Source: Sphingobacteriales bacterium
GTDB lineage: Bacteria; Bacteroidota; Bacteroidia; Sphingobacteriales; Sphingobacteriaceae
Length of the DNA: 36,361 nucleotides
Direction of reading: 5' to 3'
Assembly: GCA_947505035.1 (NCBI GenBank)
Contig: CANNIS010000007.1
Span: 1 to 36,361 of the forward strand
The translations under genes were made by a program, and so were the position numbers. Position 1 is the first letter of the stretch; the number at the start of each line of letters is the position of its first letter. A model generated the notes under the pieces. It searched no databases, was not told where the DNA came from, and saw only the letters and a list, made by a program, of their open reading frames with translations. Below are positions 3,733 through 32,547 of the stretch, piece by piece.

Positions 3733-5574
3733 ATGCTGTACAACAGAAAGAAGACTTTTATTTTATTTTTTGCACTACTAGCAAGCGTTTTGTTGCTTAA
3801 TACCGCAAACAATAGCGCTTTTGCTCAAGTAGGCACTTTGCAAGAAAATCCCTTTTCAAAAGAAAATTATACCGAAGCAAAGAAATTAGAGCGCTTGGTT
3901 TACAATACCATTTTACCTTATTTAAAAGGCACTAACTTTTTGGTTGATGTAAAAATTAAATCGCCACAATTTGTAATGGATTCGGTGGTGCCAGTCTTAG
4001 ACACTACCATGTCTATCGATTATTTACCAGGTGTAATGGATGGTTCAAATGTAGTGACCAATGACGAAGGTGTTTACGCGCCTTTCAATATTGGTAGTGG
4101 TAAACAAAAAACAGTGTTGGTAGTAATGGACACTTGCTACGATTCTAATGCACTAGGTTTTATAGATCAATTAATCAGAAACGCTATTCCATTAGATGCG
4201 GCCAATGGCGACCGACTAATTGTTCAGTCGCAAGTTTTTCCGCCATCGCCAAATGCATATCAAGATTTTCAAAAGGCAGGTGCCAATGTTGCAGCTTTAA
4301 GTCAAATGCCTCCGCAAATGATGCCGCAACCGCAACAACAACAGCCCCCTCAAACATTTCCTCAAAACAGCAAACCGGAGCCAACAGCTCCAGCAGACAA
4401 AGGTTTAAGCCTTTCTGCTTTTCTACCTTACTTAGCTATTTTGTTAATTATAATGGTGTTTGCTTTTGTATTGCTTTACTTATTGTTAAAGCCAAAGAAA
4501 AACACGAAAGCTGAAGAAGCGCTACAAATTTTACATAGTAAAGTAGAACAATTAGAAACGGCGCAGAAAAGTCCAGCTATAAATAACCAAGAGGAAAACT
4601 TAGAACAATTTGCGAGACTTGCAGAAATGCGCTCTTATGTTACCAAAGAATTTATTAGTAATAAAGCTAAAGTAGCAGACTTGTTTAATAATTGGGTGGA
4701 AGAAGACGAACGCAAAGGCTTACAAAAAATTGTCAATATTTTAAAAGCAACCAATCCAAAATTATTGCCTTTTTTAAATTCACATTTATCTAAAGACAAT
4801 TACAATTATGTAGAAATATCTTTAGATGATACCCCTACTATTGTTCCGGAAGAGCAATTGAAACAAATTGAAGAATTTAAAAAAGAGATTAATACTTTAC
4901 AATCTGCACCTAAAACAAAAGAAAGAGATATTTTTCATTTCTTAAACCAATTAAACGAACAACAAGTAATGTTCTTGATTAAAGAAGAAAGCGAAGAACT
5001 TGCTGCAATTGTTTTAGCGCAATTGCCACCGAAAAGAAGCATGGGAATTATCCGCGATTTTGATAGCACTAAACAATCTATCATTCTTCAAAAGATGAGT
5101 AGTATTAACGATTTGTCGGTAGCGGTATATAAAGAAATTGCCTCTTATTTTTCTGCCAAAGCAATGGCTATGAACGATATGAAATATGTGAGCTTAGATG
5201 GTTTAAAAACCATCACCGGCTTATTAGATACTTTGCCAACTGGCGAACAGAAAAAATACATCGACGAATTAGCTGGTTACGATTTAGACTTGGCTAGAAA
5301 AATTAAAGAGCGCTTTATTACATTCGAAGAAATTTTTGAGCAAGAAGATATATTCTTACAACGTGCATTAGAAGAGGTAGAATCTGTTATTATTGCCCGA
5401 GCTTTAATTAATGCCGACGAATCAATTGTCGAAAAACTCGTTAACCTTCGTCCTAAACGTGAGCAATTATTAATCAAATCAGAAATAGATTACAATAAAG
5501 ATTTAGCTTTAGAAGAAATCGAAAAAGCTAGAAAAATAATTCTAGACAAACTGAAAGGGAAACTTACTGCATGA
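3733..5574 (+). CDS. FliF-FliG fusion protein (flagellar MS-ring/rotor-like), 613 aa
   Basis: Domains in order: signal peptide or N-terminal anchor (1-31); periplasmic region with a FliF ring-building domain (about 67-170), best seen in IDQLIRNAIPLDAANGDRLI, the counterpart of the FliF block before its last beta strand; a Gln/Pro-rich linker (190-222); one transmembrane helix (229-253); a short coiled coil (260-300); a FliF-like cytoplasmic tail (YVTKEFISN...VADLFNNWVEED, 302-325); then FliG N (about 327-365), FliG M (396-480) and FliG C (488-610). The C domain keeps the torque-helix pattern FITFEEIFEQEDIFLQRALE and the charged helix before it (LARKIKER). In FliG M the FliM-binding EHPQ is replaced by ESEE (419-422). 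FliF RBM1 and RBM2 are absent. The stop overlaps the next start by 4 bases (ATGA). In flagellated bacteria FliF and FliG are separate proteins that bind at this junction, so the order makes structural sense. Recognition is by eye; FliG C is the firmest part and FliG N the weakest. Confidence 0.8.
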   Translation: MLYNRKKTFILFFALLASVLLLNTANNSAFAQVGTLQENPFSKENYTEAKKLERLVYNTILPYLKGTNFLVDVKIKSPQFVMDSVVPVLDTTMSIDYLPGVMDGSNVVTNDEGVYAPFNIGSGKQKTVLVVMDTCYDSNALGFIDQLIRNAIPLDAANGDRLIVQSQVFPPSPNAYQDFQKAGANVAALSQMPPQMMPQPQQQQPPQTFPQNSKPEPTAPADKGLSLSAFLPYLAILLIIMVFAFVLLYLLLKPKKNTKAEEALQILHSKVEQLETAQKSPAINNQEENLEQFARLAEMRSYVTKEFISNKAKVADLFNNWVEEDERKGLQKIVNILKATNPKLLPFLNSHLSKDNYNYVEISLDDTPTIVPEEQLKQIEEFKKEINTLQSAPKTKERDIFHFLNQLNEQQVMFLIKEESEELAAIVLAQLPPKRSMGIIRDFDSTKQSIILQKMSSINDLSVAVYKEIASYFSAKAMAMNDMKYVSLDGLKTITGLLDTLPTGEQKKYIDELAGYDLDLARKIKERFITFEEIFEQEDIFLQRALEEVESVIIARALINADESIVEKLVNLRPKREQLLIKSEIDYNKDLALEEIEKARKIILDKLKGKLTA

Positions 5575-6629
5575 AATTAGTTAAACACTTAGTTATACTG
5601 CTTATATTATTAAGTACAGAACTTGCTTGGTCGCAAAAATACGATGTGCAAACCATGTTGACAGAATACGAAGAGCTATTGCTTAATGTAGGCGCGTCGG
5701 TTAACGATATCCCCTTTTCTGCAAGAAGAATTGCACTATTTGACGTTACTTCGAAATCAGACAAGCCAATTATCATCACACAAAAATTATTGCGCTTACA
5801 ACTAGAAGATGTATTGAAGAAAAAAGCTTTCAGCGTAATTTCTGTTCCAGAGTTCGAGAAAAAAATGATATTAAAAATTGATGGTAACGATTCATTAATT
5901 AAAATTGATAACCAAAGTAATATCAGTACCTATAGACAAAACCCCGATGCACTAGATGCGGTTTGTAAAAAATATGGTGTGCAAAGTTTAGTAGACTGCA
6001 GTTTGTTTTTTGATAGCACGAATGGCTTTGTGATGAATATTAGATTTGTAAATGCCGTAAGCAGAGAAGTGCTTTGGAACGAAACATTATATACCCGATT
6101 AAAAGAATCTACATTTAAAGCGCGCAAGCAGTTAAACGTTGGGGTTGCATTTAATGGTATAAATAATTATATCGAAAACAGTAAAATATATATTGTGAAA
6201 TCGATGTCGACTTCCAATTTTGTAGAATTTATATACGATCAAAATACTTTGCCAGATAAAAGCGCTTTCTTTGGTTTATATGCAAGACTGAATTATTATA
6301 ATTTTGAATTTGCTACTACCAATGCTTCGATTGGTACCATGTTAGGAACAGCATTAATTCCATCGGTTGGATTAAGAGGTTCGAAATATTTTGCACCCAA
6401 ACAAAGGTCTACAAGCTATTGGCTAGAATATCAATATAGTGGAGGCGTTTCTTTCTATAATAAGGTATATGTGAATGCCGCTATGGCTTTCAACCTAAAC
6501 CTTACCAAAAGCTTTGGCTTTGGTGCTCAGGCTACCTATGGTTTATATCCGGCGGTATTTAAAAAAGAAACCGCTTCTGTTACTTTAAATAATTTAAATT
6601 ACGCGCTTTATTTATCTTATAAATTTTAA
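5571..6629 (+). CDS. Exported protein with FlgO/CsgG-like region and beta-rich C-terminus
   Basis: Second gene of the motor-like operon, translationally coupled to the fusion gene. A cleavable signal peptide (1-22, ending in WSQ) directs it out of the cytoplasm. Residues about 50-180 have the alternating pattern of the CsgG/FlgO/TolB-N type fold: RRIALFDVTS, then a helix LRLQLEDVLKKKAFSVISV, then KYGVQSLVDCSLF and FVMNIRFVNAVSREVLWNE. FlgO and FlgT proteins of Vibrio with related folds belong to outer-membrane structures around the flagellar basal body. Residues about 215-352 are rich in aromatic amphipathic strands and end in YALYLSYKF, as outer-membrane barrels do. I infer an outer-membrane or periplasmic partner of the inner-membrane fusion protein. 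The fold assignment is a weak similarity and needs a profile search. Confidence 0.5.
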   Translation: MKLVKHLVILLILLSTELAWSQKYDVQTMLTEYEELLLNVGASVNDIPFSARRIALFDVTSKSDKPIIITQKLLRLQLEDVLKKKAFSVISVPEFEKKMILKIDGNDSLIKIDNQSNISTYRQNPDALDAVCKKYGVQSLVDCSLFFDSTNGFVMNIRFVNAVSREVLWNETLYTRLKESTFKARKQLNVGVAFNGINNYIENSKIYIVKSMSTSNFVEFIYDQNTLPDKSAFFGLYARLNYYNFEFATTNASIGTMLGTALIPSVGLRGSKYFAPKQRSTSYWLEYQYSGGVSFYNKVYVNAAMAFNLNLTKSFGFGAQATYGLYPAVFKKETASVTLNNLNYALYLSYKF

Positions 6630-6635
6630 TTAAAG

Positions 6636-7193
6636 ATGAGGATGAAATTTTATACCAACACCTTTTGTTTTATAGTCGCATTTTTTTTATTGGGCGGAGT
6701 AGCTTTTGGCCAAGCTAATCCTTTTCAAAAAGTGGATACCACTAAAGCGCGCTTAAAAATTAAATACAAAAACCAAAACTCTGCAGTAGATTTGACTTTA
6801 GATGTAAATGAACAAGAATTTTATTTAGAATTTAACGGGAAGGATTTACAAAGTAATTTAATGAGCCCCGAAGATACGATTGTTAAAAAAGACACAAAAG
6901 CTCCCTTAGCAAAAGCAGATAAAGAACCCATTAAAAAAATCGATGCCAACAAAATGTTGCGTTTTTACCGTTTAGCGCAAGACGCTTATTCGAAAAAAAC
7001 TTACGATATTTCTTTAGCTTATATAGATAGCTCTATGTTTTATGGCGAATCATCTGATGCCCTAGGCTTAAAAGGCAGTGTGTACTTTACCAAAGGTGAA
7101 GTTGAATTAGCTAAACGCGTTTGGGAGCAGGCTAAAATAATAGACAAAGATTTTAAAGTTCCTGTTATTAATCAAAAATATATTCGCAAATGA
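6636..7193 (+). CDS. Small exported protein with TPR-like C-terminus, motor-like operon
   Basis: A 185-residue protein with an N-terminal signal peptide (about 1-25, ending AFGQ) and no further membrane segment, so it is likely periplasmic. Residues 35-70 look beta-rich, 80-105 are Lys/Asp/Ala-rich and probably disordered, and 107-178 form helices with TPR-type spacing (MLRFYRLAQDAYSKKTYDIS, then ALGLKGSVYFTKGEVELAKR). It lies six bases after the previous gene and its stop overlaps the MotA-like start by four bases, so it is almost surely made together with the motor proteins. The start could be the first ATG or the third codon. I do not recognise the family; a scaffold or assembly role in the periplasm is an inference from position and TPR shape only. 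Confidence 0.5.
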   Translation: MRMKFYTNTFCFIVAFFLLGGVAFGQANPFQKVDTTKARLKIKYKNQNSAVDLTLDVNEQEFYLEFNGKDLQSNLMSPEDTIVKKDTKAPLAKADKEPIKKIDANKMLRFYRLAQDAYSKKTYDISLAYIDSSMFYGESSDALGLKGSVYFTKGEVELAKRVWEQAKIIDKDFKVPVINQKYIRK

Positions 7194-8020
7194 GGTTTTC
7201 CATACTATCGTTTTTTTGGATAATTTTTTCTTTAAGTTTATTAATGACGGGTATCCTCGATATCATTGGCATTATTCCATTAAAAGAATATTTTCCATAT
7301 TTATTTATCAACCGGTTTTTAGACTTACCCAGTTTTTTAATTGTAATGGGTGGTTTGCTAGCTAACGCATTTATAATTTATCCAAGTAAACTCATGCGTT
7401 CGGCATTTGCCAAAATGAGTCAAACTTTTCACCAGTCCATAAACACGCAAAAAGTTTTACAAAAAGATATTGAATCTATTGTTGCTTGGAGTAACGAATA
7501 TAAGACCAACAGATTAGAGTTTTTACGTACCATTCAAGATAAGCAAAAACACGATTTTACTTCTTATTTGTTTTCTTTGATCAGTACAAACTATTCGATA
7601 GACGAGGTTAGAGTAATTGGCGAAACCAGTATAGACGAAAACTATTCGAACAGCCACAAGATTTCGGAAGTATTAAAAAATATGGGCAATTCTGGTCCAG
7701 CTTTTGGTATGTTTGGTACCTTGTTTGGGTTGGTTTATATGCTTTCGAGCTTAGACGATCCCTCTAAAATTGGACCAGGTTTAGCAACAGGTTTATTGGT
7801 TACTTTATATGGTGTAACATTTACCCATTTATTCTTTTACCCGGTTTCTAAAAAAATTATGTTGAATGCCGATTACAACAAAATTCGCGAAGAGTTAATG
7901 TTAGAAGGCGTGCAACTCATTGCCGAAAACAAATCACCGCTATTTATCAAGGATAAATTACAGACCTATTTAGATCGCTCGTATACTATCAAGCAATTAA
8001 AAGCTGAGAATAAAAAGTAA
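7190..8020 (+). CDS. MotA-family stator/proton channel protein
   Basis: MotA forms the pentameric ring of the flagellar stator and couples ion flow to torque on FliG. This 276-residue protein has the full MotA plan: TM1 (about 3-27), TM2 with DLPSFLIVMGGLLANAFIIYP (45-65), a cytoplasmic domain (66-165), TM3 with SGPAFGMFGTLFGLVYML (168-185) and TM4 GLATGLLVTLYGVTF (197-211). The two prolines important in MotA appear as P170 and P218, and LDDPSKIGPG between TM3 and TM4 matches the MotA type rather than ExbB/TolQ or GldL. It overlaps the preceding gene by four bases and is followed by a MotB-like gene five bases on. The FliG-like rotor encoded in the same operon supports a true stator role. Ion specificity cannot be read. 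Confidence 0.88.
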   Translation: MRFSILSFFWIIFSLSLLMTGILDIIGIIPLKEYFPYLFINRFLDLPSFLIVMGGLLANAFIIYPSKLMRSAFAKMSQTFHQSINTQKVLQKDIESIVAWSNEYKTNRLEFLRTIQDKQKHDFTSYLFSLISTNYSIDEVRVIGETSIDENYSNSHKISEVLKNMGNSGPAFGMFGTLFGLVYMLSSLDDPSKIGPGLATGLLVTLYGVTFTHLFFYPVSKKIMLNADYNKIREELMLEGVQLIAENKSPLFIKDKLQTYLDRSYTIKQLKAENKK

Positions 8021-8025
8021 GCGGA

Positions 8026-8679
8026 ATGGCCAGAAAAAAAATTCATTTCGAAGAAGAAAATGAGAATTGGCTGATTACTTACGCCGATACCATTACCAAT
8101 TTATTGGCCTTTTTCGTATTGATTGTTTCTGTATCTACTATCGACCAAACCGCTTGGTCTGAAGTAAACAATTCGGTAAAAGAAAAACTAAATCAAAAAG
8201 AAGTAAAATCTACTTTAGCACAAATTAAAGAAACGTTAGACTCTGTGCTGGTGCAAGAAAAAGCAGACAGTTTGGTAGATATTAAATTAGATGCCGATGG
8301 TATTAAAATGAATGTACTGAGCAAGGGTATGTTTAATTCGGGCGAAGCAGATTTATTAGACGATGGTAAAAGTGTTGTCGATAGAGTGGTGAGCGCCATT
8401 ACCAGTTCTGATATTAAAAATTTTAAAATTGATGTGGAAGGTCATACAGATGACGTGCCTATTTCAAACGATTTCTATAAATCCAATTGGGAACTCAGCA
8501 CCTCTAGGGCTTCCCATACCATTCAATATTTAATTGACAGAGGCGTTGAGCCCGCAAGGCTTAAGGCTTCTGGATATGGCGACACTAAGCCTATTAAACC
8601 AAACAAAGATGCCATAGGCAAGCCAATAGATAAAAACAGGGCTTTCAATAGAAGAGTGGTACTCCGCATTTATTATTAA
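8026..8679 (+). CDS. MotB-family stator protein with OmpA peptidoglycan-binding domain
   Basis: MotB pairs with MotA and anchors the stator to peptidoglycan. The N-terminus carries the MotB signature WLITYADTITNLLAFFVLIV (15-34); D21 corresponds to the essential proton-carrying aspartate in the single transmembrane helix. A linker that could hold the plug helix follows (45-75), then an OmpA-like domain (about 95-215) with EGHTDDVPIS, NWELSTSRA, ASGYGDTKP and NRAFNRRVVLRI, the usual peptidoglycan-contact blocks. The length of 217 residues is typical of short MotB proteins. It is the last gene of the tight operon begun by the FliF-FliG fusion. No terminator is visible in the 50 bases before the rhomboid gene, so read-through is possible. 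Confidence 0.9.
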   Translation: MARKKIHFEEENENWLITYADTITNLLAFFVLIVSVSTIDQTAWSEVNNSVKEKLNQKEVKSTLAQIKETLDSVLVQEKADSLVDIKLDADGIKMNVLSKGMFNSGEADLLDDGKSVVDRVVSAITSSDIKNFKIDVEGHTDDVPISNDFYKSNWELSTSRASHTIQYLIDRGVEPARLKASGYGDTKPIKPNKDAIGKPIDKNRAFNRRVVLRIYY

Positions 8680-8729
8680 AGTTATTTGCGTTATCCTATT
8701 TATCGCATCGAAAATAAATCTGATTACAC

Positions 8730-29591: not shown

Positions 29592-30386
29592 TTACATCAA
29601 TTTAAATTTCACTGGCACGTTAAACTGCACACGCACTGGTCTTCCGTTTTGTCTACCAGGTGCAAAGTTTGGCAAGTTTTTAATTACACGCTTAGCCTCT
29701 TCGTCACAACCGCCGCCAATCCCTCTTAATATTTTTACATCAGAAACGCTACCATCTTTTTCTACTACGAAAGAGATAAATACAGTTCCTTCAATATTAT
29801 TTTCCCTAGCCATTGCTGGGTATTTTGTATTCTTTGCAATATATGCGATTAAAGCGCCTTCGCCTCCTCCTGGAAATTCTGGCATTTGCTCAACCGAAAT
29901 AAATGGTGCTTCTTCACCTGTAATATCTCCATCTAAACCACTTAAATCTACTTCTGCATTTGGATCACCTTGAACAGTTGTTAAACCCGCATCCACTTTT
30001 TTTAATTCATCTTGAATAGGAGGTGGTTCATCAGGCACCTGATCGTCTGGTTTAATTACCGGAGGGGTAAATTTAATCGTCGACTTTAAAGGTGGTGGTG
30101 GAGGTGGTGGTGGCGTTGGTTGGTTTTTATCAACCGGCGGCACATCCTCTAAAACATTCGTTTGGTCTACTTTTACAATTTTCTCGTCTGGAAGCGCATT
30201 GGATATTAAACGAATAATTAATGGTGCACTTACCGACAAAGTAAAAGCAACTATTGCCAGAACGATGCCAAAAAAAGCATGTTTTGGATAACTTTTACGA
30301 ATTTCAAAAGCACCATACTCCTGGTTTCTACCACGGAATACAAGCTCTATCCATTTGCCATCATATAAATCTATTTTACCTGCCAT
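29592..30386 (-). CDS. tonB: TonB energy transducer
   Basis: TonB passes the energy of the proton gradient from ExbB/ExbD to outer-membrane receptors. The 264-residue protein has a cytoplasmic N-terminus (1-36), one transmembrane helix (about 37-60), a proline-rich spacer with a run of eight prolines (92-99), an acidic stretch, and the C-terminal TonB domain (about 165-264) with YPAMARENNIEGTVFISFVV, VEKDGSVSDVKILRGIGGGC and the final NVPVKFKL. The long N-terminal extension before the helix is common in Bacteroidota TonB. It lies 21 bases after the second exbD. Confidence 0.95.
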   Translation of the reverse strand: MAGKIDLYDGKWIELVFRGRNQEYGAFEIRKSYPKHAFFGIVLAIVAFTLSVSAPLIIRLISNALPDEKIVKVDQTNVLEDVPPVDKNQPTPPPPPPPPLKSTIKFTPPVIKPDDQVPDEPPPIQDELKKVDAGLTTVQGDPNAEVDLSGLDGDITGEEAPFISVEQMPEFPGGGEGALIAYIAKNTKYPAMARENNIEGTVFISFVVEKDGSVSDVKILRGIGGGCDEEAKRVIKNLPNFAPGRQNGRPVRVQFNVPVKFKLM

Positions 30387-30407
30387 TTGCTAATTTCTTT
30401 TATAGAA

Positions 30408-31043
30408 TTATAATGTGGTTTTACTTAATAACGCTAAATCAATTGGCGTAATATCTACAATTGCATAACGACCAACATTACAGATATTCATTTCATCTAA
30501 GATGTCAACTAAATTTCCGTATCTCGAATTATCGTCTGCCTTAATAATCACAATTAAACCATCTTTAAAAGATTTGATGGCATATACTTTTGCCCTGAAA
30601 TCTTCTTCTGTAATTTTATTGGTTTGTAATTGCTCTTTGTAAATTCCAATGGAATCTACGCTAGCATTTCTAATTTTATTTTCTTGTAATAAAACTTTAC
30701 GAATGCCATCTTTACCATAGTCTGTAACCGTTGTAAGGCCTGGCTCACCAGTTTTTTCATCAACAAAATAATAAACAACTTTATTTTCTTTAGTAAGCAA
30801 CACCGTCAAAGTTTGGGATGCTTTTACTTTAGTTTGTTGATCTTCGGTTAAGTTTTTATCCTTAACTGGCATATTGATTTCCATGGTTTGCGGCTTATTC
30901 ATGGAAGTGGTTAACATAAAAAAAGTAATCAATAAAAAACCTAAGTCAACCATGGGTGTAAAATCCACCCTTGTTGACATTTTTTTACCTTTCTTTTTGC
31001 CTTTATGGGCTCCACCGCCGCCGCCACTTTCTATCTCTGACAT
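30408..31043 (-). CDS. exbD: ExbD-family biopolymer transport protein, second copy
   Basis: ExbD works with ExbB as the proton channel that drives TonB. This 211-residue protein has a Gly- and Lys-rich cytoplasmic N-terminus (GGGGGAHKGKKKGKK, 7-21), then the transmembrane signature VDFTPMVDLGFLLITFFML with the essential aspartate D33. The periplasmic part (about 55-211) is longer than the E. coli ExbD and ends with DDNSRYGNLVDILDEMNICN, the usual C-terminal block. It differs clearly from the copy just upstream, from which it is separated by 22 bases. Confidence 0.92.
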   Translation of the reverse strand: MSEIESGGGGGAHKGKKKGKKMSTRVDFTPMVDLGFLLITFFMLTTSMNKPQTMEINMPVKDKNLTEDQQTKVKASQTLTVLLTKENKVVYYFVDEKTGEPGLTTVTDYGKDGIRKVLLQENKIRNASVDSIGIYKEQLQTNKITEEDFRAKVYAIKSFKDGLIVIIKADDNSRYGNLVDILDEMNICNVGRYAIVDITPIDLALLSKTTL

Positions 31044-31065
31044 CGCTAATTTTTTTTATGAATTA

Positions 31066-31665
31066 TTAATTCTCAGCTTTTTCCAAGCTTGTAATAAAGT
31101 TGAAACGGTCTACTTTTTTATCTTGCAAAGTTGCGATCACTTGCTTTACTACAGGAAAGCCTGCATTTTGATCGCCTTTAACAGCAACCCTTAAAGCCTT
31201 ATTCGTAAAACGTGCTTGCAATACCCAATCAGCTAATTCGTTGTTGGTAGAATCCGAAGGGATTCCAGTTTGTGCGAATTTTTTTCTGCCTTCTGCATCT
31301 AAGTCTAAATACTGCCCTAGATTTTTAATCGACACGCCAAATGAACTCAATAAAGAGAATTCTTTTTTCTGTTTGTCGTTAAATGTTAATTGGTATTTAG
31401 TAGCCATTTTATCTAACAATTCAAATCTGTTCGCTTCTCCATCTAATGCAAAAAACACGCGCGAATCTTTATCTATCGTTAATAATAAAATGTCTGTTTC
31501 TGGTAACTTTATTTCTGAGATCGAGGAAGGTGTTGTCACCGTCACAGGCTCATCAGGTTTAAACTTGGTAGCCAACATAAAGAACGTAAGCAGCAAGAAT
31601 GCCACGTCGGTCATTGCCGTCATGTCTACTACTGTACTCTTACGAGGAACCTTTACTTTTGACAT
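31066..31665 (-). CDS. exbD: ExbD-family biopolymer transport protein, first copy
   Basis: First of two adjacent ExbD genes, 199 residues. The transmembrane signature is VDMTAMTDVAFLLLTFFMLA with the channel aspartate D20. The periplasmic domain carries an insertion (about 85-140, with FGVSIKNLGQYLDLDAEGRK) before the C-terminal VKGDQNAGFPVVKQVIATLQ block, so it is longer than ExbD of Proteobacteria. It follows exbB by 39 bases. Two different ExbD genes side by side are usual in Bacteroidota and may form mixed dimers in the ExbB ring. Confidence 0.92.
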   Translation of the reverse strand: MSKVKVPRKSTVVDMTAMTDVAFLLLTFFMLATKFKPDEPVTVTTPSSISEIKLPETDILLLTIDKDSRVFFALDGEANRFELLDKMATKYQLTFNDKQKKEFSLLSSFGVSIKNLGQYLDLDAEGRKKFAQTGIPSDSTNNELADWVLQARFTNKALRVAVKGDQNAGFPVVKQVIATLQDKKVDRFNFITSLEKAEN

Positions 31666-31704
31666 TGTATTTGTTATTTATGTTTAAATATTGCTTATCA
31701 ATTA

Positions 31705-32547
31705 TTATCTGTTTTTAGCAGCAAATGTTTGTACGATACTGTAACCAGCTTCGTCGATTGCATAAGTAATTGCATCAATTTTACTAGTAAATACATTATA
31801 CATAATTGTTGCAATAGCAGAGTTACCAATACCTAAAGCAGTATTAATTAAGGCCTCAGAAATACCGGTTGCTAAAGCTACAGAGTCTGGAGAACCAGCG
31901 GTTGCTAATGCAGAGAACGCTTTAATCATACCCAATACCGTTCCTAATAAAGCGATTAAGGTAGAAACCGAAGCCATAGTTGCAATAACAACTAAGTTTT
32001 TCTCTAAACCTGGTAATTCTAAAGTAACCGACTCTTCAATTTCTTTTTGAATTGAAATGATTCTTTGGTCTACAGGCATAGTAGTTAAGCCTTGCATTTC
32101 TTTGTATTTTAAAAGCGTAGAACGCATAACATTTGCAACAGAACCTCTTTGTGCATCACACTCTTTAATTGCGCCTTCTATATCGTTTTGGTCTAATTTT
32201 GCTCTGATTTTTCTAACAAATGCTTCTGCATTTCCTGTTCCTTGTGCTTTACCAATTGTTAAGAAACGCTCAATAGAAAAAGTAATGTTCATTAAAACCA
32301 ATGACAATAAAATAGGTACGATATAACCACCTTTGTGGATCAAACCTAATACGTGTCCTGCACCTTCTTGAACTGGGTGATTCGCTGGATCATTTCCTTC
32401 AAAGTTTGAAGGCGCACCCATCACAAATGTGAAAATTAAGATACCCACCAATAAACATAGTGGAATAGTAAATGATGCGAAAAAAGTACTCAATCCATTC
32501 CCTTTTTCAACTTTTGCAGCAGCAGCTACTTTTGCTTCGTTTGCCAT
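31705..32547 (-). CDS. exbB: ExbB/TolQ family proton channel protein
   Basis: ExbB forms the membrane pentamer in which ExbD sits and powers TonB. The 280-residue protein has an extra N-terminal helix (about 21-43, FTIPLCLLVGILIFTFVMG), then the core: KGGYIVPILLSLVLMNITFS with the ERFLTI motif, a cytoplasmic domain (about 100-185) and the paired helices LVVIATMASVSTLIALLGTV and ALATGISEALINTALGIGNS. It is the ExbB type by the GTVLGMIKAFSALA block, in contrast to the MotA-family protein at 7190-8020. First gene of the exb-ton operon, preceded by a 205-base spacer with a possible promoter. Confidence 0.95.
   Translation of the reverse strand: MANEAKVAAAAKVEKGNGLSTFFASFTIPLCLLVGILIFTFVMGAPSNFEGNDPANHPVQEGAGHVLGLIHKGGYIVPILLSLVLMNITFSIERFLTIGKAQGTGNAEAFVRKIRAKLDQNDIEGAIKECDAQRGSVANVMRSTLLKYKEMQGLTTMPVDQRIISIQKEIEESVTLELPGLEKNLVVIATMASVSTLIALLGTVLGMIKAFSALATAGSPDSVALATGISEALINTALGIGNSAIATIMYNVFTSKIDAITYAIDEAGYSIVQTFAAKNR

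Follow-up and report, generated by a model that had tools for sequence, protein, structure and literature searches.

A five-gene operon of a Sphingobacteriales bacterium predicted to encode a non-flagellar rotary machine with a FliF-FliG fusion rotor

A 36,361-nucleotide stretch of a metagenome-assembled genome (84% complete) of a Sphingobacteriales bacterium (GenBank assembly GCA_947505035.1, contig CANNIS010000007.1, positions 1 to 36,361; here, the window) was found to carry a five-gene operon that probably encodes an ion-driven rotary machine other than a flagellum, reaching across the cell envelope and passing torque to an outer-membrane component. The parts of this putative machine, and their conservation across distant Bacteroidota, were established by sequence comparison. 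The five open reading frames (ORFs) lie on the plus strand between positions 3733 and 8679 and are packed as tightly as the initial annotation had described. The gene for a 613-aa FliF-FliG fusion (3733-5574) overlaps that for a 352-aa outer-membrane protein (5571-6629) by 4 bases (5571-5574). After a 6-base gap follows the gene for a 185-aa exported tetratricopeptide repeat (TPR) protein (6636-7193), which overlaps by 4 bases (7190-7193) the gene for a 276-aa MotA/PomA-type stator subunit (7190-8020), and a 217-aa MotB-type stator subunit (8026-8679) is encoded 5 bases further on.

The rotor protein matched the Pfam families FliG_C (1.2e-13) and FliG_M (3.7e-9), both above the curated cut-offs, and weakly FliF_C (0.11). 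A profile built from 38 such fusions (31 non-redundant) matched canonical FliG at 1e-31 to 1e-39 and seven canonical FliFs over residues ~353-546 (ring-building motif RBM3b, the second transmembrane helix TM2 and the C-tail) at 1e-6 to 3e-10, the FliF and then the FliG match following one another along the chain in the order of a head-to-tail fusion. In hhalign, for which all E-values given here are pairwise and not database-wide, fusion residues 55-174 (3895-4254) aligned with residues 245-406 of canonical FliF, the periplasmic RBM3 domain of the S-ring with its beta-collar (probability 97.4%, E-value 1.3e-11). AlphaFold2 (AF2) models of the first two genes, built from 6-7 sequences, were of low confidence (predicted local distance difference test, pLDDT, 53.9 and 61.2). 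That of the fusion displays a helix-strand-[collar]-strand-helix-strand arrangement, then a transmembrane helix (residues 231-252, 4423-4488), also apparent from hydrophobicity and assigned as the equivalent of TM2, and then an all-helical remainder, in which the middle domain and the C-terminal torque domain of FliG lie at residues 401-605 (4933-5547). Foldseek matched this model separately to FliG (E-value 3.5e-9) and to FliF S-ring structures (probability 0.98-1.00). Thus, the initial assignment as a FliF-FliG rotor stands for FliG, but FliF is represented only by RBM3 and one transmembrane helix, by profile, hhalign, AF2 and Foldseek alike. RBM1, RBM2 and TM1 were not found in the fusion, and a signal-peptide-like start (3733-3825) occupies their place; its hydrophobic stretch, which ends in ..SAFA|Q in the window, ends similarly in most of the 38 fusions compared. 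The loss of RBM1 and RBM2 fits the absence of export genes described below, as in flagella the RBM2 ring touches the export gate (PMC11481574).

All 13 canonical FliGs compared from flagellated Bacteroidota have the EHPQ motif and none of the 38 fusions does, the window protein having EESEE instead. This is the motif by which FliG contacts FliM. The torque-helix arginine and acidic residue, whose roles are described for R281 and D289 of Escherichia coli (PMC12505986), are kept in the operons designated type A below and in most of type B, and the window fusion retains the equivalents of both. When plasmids were searched, the only matches were partial ones, confined to the FliG part and coming from unrelated bacteria. 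The MgtE transporter shares a FliG-like N domain; its confusion with FliG at the operon was ruled out, the MgtE_N match of the first gene being weak (0.0012) against a FliG_C match above its cut-off. Weak matches elsewhere, in frames of ~450-470 aa at profile positions ~406-527, were discounted as MgtE-like on length and position.

The stator genes matched MotA_ExbB (5e-16) in the case of the fourth gene, and MotB_plug (6e-14) and OmpA (4e-18) in the case of the fifth. Their nearest NCBIfam models were flagellar MotA/PomA/MotP and MotB/MotD, all below the equivalog cut-offs, as expected of a divergent branch. The operon MotAs keep the proline of TM3, the GTL/GTT motif and the PomA-typical TLYG/TFYG motif, and Asp21 of MotB (codon 8086-8088), in a TYAD/TYSD/SYLD/SYID context, is conserved in every operon MotB aligned. 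With its TM3/TM4 channel motifs in MotA and its channel Asp, plug region and peptidoglycan-binding OmpA domain in MotB, the pair has the features of a flagellar-type stator, in agreement with the initial reading of both genes. The fourth gene encodes the only MotA-class protein found in the host genome. In a MotA tree, the outgroup of which is a single ExbB on a very long branch, the window genus groups with type A (93/83).

The remaining two genes had been taken to encode exported envelope proteins, a description that holds and can be refined. The second gene matched no Pfam family, and its protein family gave no significant match in a PDB profile search. Its product, considered from the family alignment, the low-confidence model and a remote homologue in type C, is predicted to comprise a signal peptide, an alpha/beta domain (residues 53-174, 5727-6092) related by Foldseek to TolB-N and LpoB (4q6l, TM-score 0.61 by target), and an 8-strand beta-barrel (residues 184-352, 6120-6626) related to OmpA and PagL, with Phe as last residue. 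The third gene had a weak TPR match in Pfam and was assigned also from its homologues, most of which carry a lipobox, and from its homology to the TPR at the C-terminus of the type B ushers (hhalign 99.3%, 2.4e-20). A whole-genome search with the usher profile found no usher gene in the window genus, this TPR gene being its only match there.

Each of the six species of the genus has the operon, with gene order and flanking genes unchanged, and the ratio of nonsynonymous to synonymous substitutions (dN/dS) was 0.02-0.10 for all five genes, a strong purifying selection like that on neighbouring genes. On both counts the operon is not a chance arrangement. A second genus, g23, has the genes for the fusion, the outer-membrane protein, the TPR protein and MotA in the same order, with 24-39% identity, up to the end of the contig. 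This order, FliFG-OMP-TPR-MotA-MotB (OMP, outer-membrane protein), was designated type A and occurs also in f44, which is another class-level lineage. In type C, carried by the distant lineage f51, the order is OMP-TPR-MotA-MotB-FliFG, where the leading gene is remotely homologous to that for the outer-membrane protein of type A (hhalign 96.3%, 1.8e-9). That a distant lineage has these five genes in a different arrangement strongly supports their being one unit. The five genes are thus co-conserved in relatives.

Within the family the motor is rare: 9 of 351 genomes had matches, one of them weak. In a sample of the phylum, a FliG_C match in a frame of ~590-704 aa was present in 23 of 395 genomes, 8 of which also have a canonical FliG; in the class of the window organism, family f98 carries the fusion. 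The scattered occurrence of the motor within the family points to horizontal transfer or repeated loss as candidate causes. In the FliG tree the fusions form one clade against canonical FliG (100/99), in which types A, B and C, the window genus and g23 are each a clade. Some fusions are very divergent (loci L094-L096 in f98 and L081-L082 in f42; the FliG branch of genus g275 of f98 is longer than 4), so that a census would need a fusion-specific profile and not PF01706.

The proposal that the operon is a torque unit without an export system was substantiated by searches for FlhA (PF00771) and FliM/FliN (PF01052), which gave nothing in any of the six species studied in the genus, of which two have genomes 99% complete; a flagellum encoded elsewhere in the genome was thereby ruled out. 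Both were likewise missing from 8 of 8 carriers in the family, from all carriers in the class and from 27 of 35 carriers overall, while the remaining 8 (two of f51 and six of f44) have both. Rod, hook and filament genes were not seen in the window, no search having been aimed at them elsewhere; without FlhA such components could not be exported. Retention of a rotor protein without a filament has been reported for 11% of non-motile species (PMC12199754). As neither a flagellar gene set elsewhere in the genome nor a lack of co-conservation was found, the initial interpretation is supported.

A further operon type, B, was found in f44, f42 and f98, and co-occurs with type A in several f44 genomes. 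Its order is small exported proteins, a chaperone-like protein, an usher-like protein, FliFG, TPR, MotA and MotB. The usher-like protein of ~1000 aa matched six ushers of E. coli K-12 (hhalign 95%, 4e-8, 544 columns; cross-controls at least 0.02), and the 277-aa protein matched chaperones weakly (1.5e-4, probability 51). PDB profile searches with the usher-like and chaperone-like families gave no significant match, nor did the type B genes match NCBIfam. The small upstream proteins are homologous to one another, some match DUF4402, and one set of these pilin-like genes matched FimA (1.3e-4). At L083, L085 and L092, where three or four small exported proteins precede the chaperone- and usher-like genes, it is possible that they are pilins of an undescribed chaperone-usher pilus of Bacteroidota. 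The type B MotBs of f44 are extended to about 500-627 aa, and the one checked (L083:11256-13019) has SPOR domains at its C-terminus, a second peptidoglycan-binding module.

The type B usher carries its own copy of the TPR, which suggests that the TPR may be a coupling element and the outer-membrane module an interchangeable load. More broadly, it is an evenly balanced proposition that Bacteroidota possess a phylum-wide family of non-flagellar rotary machines, in which a core of FliFG ring, TPR coupler, MotA and MotB would drive interchangeable modules, a barrel protein in one branch and in another a chaperone-usher pilus rotated or assembled by ion-motive power. In the proposed mechanism, FliFG subunits would form an inner-membrane ring by way of RBM3, and MotA5MotB2 units anchored to peptidoglycan would push the cytoplasmic FliG ring as ions enter; the PomA-like sequence hints at Na+, with H+ also possible. 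The ring would turn in one fixed sense because the switch is missing, and its periplasmic part would transmit torque to the outer-membrane protein with the TPR protein as intermediary. In the type B relatives the same core would be joined to a chaperone-usher pilus through the TPR-bearing usher, and in the window organism the machine probably moves an outer-membrane structure or does work on one, as in surface attachment, envelope movement or motility.

Several points weigh against this picture. The FliG N domain is only weakly matched in the fusion, and in the window only some of the residues for contact with MotA are conserved. The MotA tree leaves the type C stators outside types A and B, a single clade not being rejected (p-AU, approximately unbiased test, 0.24). 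The models of the rotor and of the outer-membrane protein are those of low confidence given above, and transfer of torque by the TPR protein is proposed from co-occurrence and from the usher TPR. Rotation itself, its output and the physiological role are inferred.

Among other explanations, the one most worth keeping is a non-rotary transducer resembling TolQR or ExbBD, in which the stator and FliFG would pull or push the outer membrane for envelope order or transport without continuous rotation. In its favour, the outer-membrane protein has a domain like TolB-N and LpoB, whose fold serves in Tol-Pal and in envelope synthesis, and ExbB/ExbD/TonB genes lie nearby in the window. However, ExbBD and TolQR operate without FliF/FliG, whereas here the ring-building RBM3 is conserved in partnership with the torque domain of FliG, and the operon MotB combines a plug of flagellar type with an OmpA domain, features reportedly absent from non-flagellar transporters (PMC12505986); on balance such a transducer appears improbable. 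A smaller chance attaches to an accessory of type IX secretion and gliding, by which the motor would add force to existing gliding machinery. GldM is indeed encoded in the host genome, outside the operon, as it is in the remaining carriers of its class, but no gld/spr gene was seen beside the operons, and in carriers of f44 and f51 the motor occurs without any match to GldM, so that the motor does not depend on GldLM.

The stator-rotor pair might also serve as a surface or load sensor, reading mechanical load and signalling without doing work. Flagellar stators are load-sensitive, but no constant signalling gene stands beside the operons, and this explanation is very unlikely. Least credible of all is a decaying remnant of a lost flagellum: although the other flagellar genes are lacking, and two f51 and six f44 carriers do have FlhA and FliM/FliN, decay is contradicted by the dN/dS of all five genes, by the fusion itself and by a gene set, two of its members non-flagellar envelope genes, conserved across the phylum. 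Moreover, fusion FliGs branch as a clade of their own, and there are genomes that have them side by side with a canonical FliG.

Downstream of motB, four relatives have, before a rhomboid gene, a ~577-aa zinc-carboxypeptidase-like gene (M14-type by eye), which is shortened to 164 aa in G002 and reduced in the window (8680-8729) to a scar of ~15 codons, ..SYLRYPIYRIENKSD. This gene was rejected as a sixth member of the operon, being lost or truncated in 2 of 6 species. Apart from the motor operon, a cluster of ExbB, two ExbD and TonB genes lies on the minus strand at 29592-32547. An Rfam search of the window and two relatives gave no match.

No description of this system was found in the open-access papers searched, a scope outside which lie most subscription papers and all preprints. 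The parts are clearly homologous to flagellar ones, but within the searchable literature the machine as a whole appears to be new, since it falls outside the flagellum and no other rotary system is known to contain FliF/FliG. If the rotary interpretation is correct, the rotor and stator of the flagellum lead an existence independent of it, and the operon would be one more kind of ion-driven rotary machine and a concrete candidate for the use of a partial flagellar motor and for the persistence of rotor proteins in non-flagellated bacteria. It would also give structural studies a natural rotor and stator in minimal form, with one rotor chain and two stator proteins, and the type B relatives would suggest a powered chaperone-usher pilus, the assembly of which is not otherwise known to be powered at the outer membrane.

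Among known systems, the GldLM motor of type IX secretion is likewise ion-driven, acts across the envelope and belongs to Bacteroidota, but it is without FliF/FliG, and GldLM resembles MotAB without being homologous (PMC13104615). The operon proteins match MotA/MotB and not GldM, and the host genome has a GldM-type system besides the operon motor, so the distinction drawn in the initial annotation is upheld, as is that from ExbB/ExbD/TonB. ExbBD-TonB and TolQR share MotA/MotB-superfamily channels but have no rotor protein, and in the window ExbB, ExbD and TonB are encoded separately. The AglRQS-Glt gliding motor of Myxococcus is comparable as a stator-type motor coupled to the outer membrane without a flagellum, but is not known to have a FliF/FliG rotor. 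Zorya defence has a MotAB-like pair (ZorAB), and the operon MotB matched ZorB models (6e-20); it was ruled out because only ZorB models were matched, through MotB, with no match to ZorA, ZorC or ZorD, and the operon has FliF-FliG. Chaperone-usher pili resemble only the type B relatives, in their usher, chaperone-like and pilin-like genes, but the type B usher has a C-terminal TPR and shares its operon with a rotary motor, and the window genus is without an usher. Engineered FliF-FliG fusions of Salmonella and Vibrio, which form rings and are functional (PMC11481574), show the same covalent joining of MS-ring and FliG; these are artificial, with full-length FliF, and made for flagella, whereas the operon fusion is natural, minimal and, as proposed here, non-flagellar. 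Finally, the flagellar motor itself has homologous RBM3, FliG middle and C-terminal domains and a MotA/MotB stator with channel Asp, plug and OmpA domain. In the operon, by contrast, FliF is cut to RBM3 and one transmembrane helix and fused to FliG, FliM/FliN, EHPQ and FlhA are missing, and the motor has outer-membrane and TPR partners of its own.

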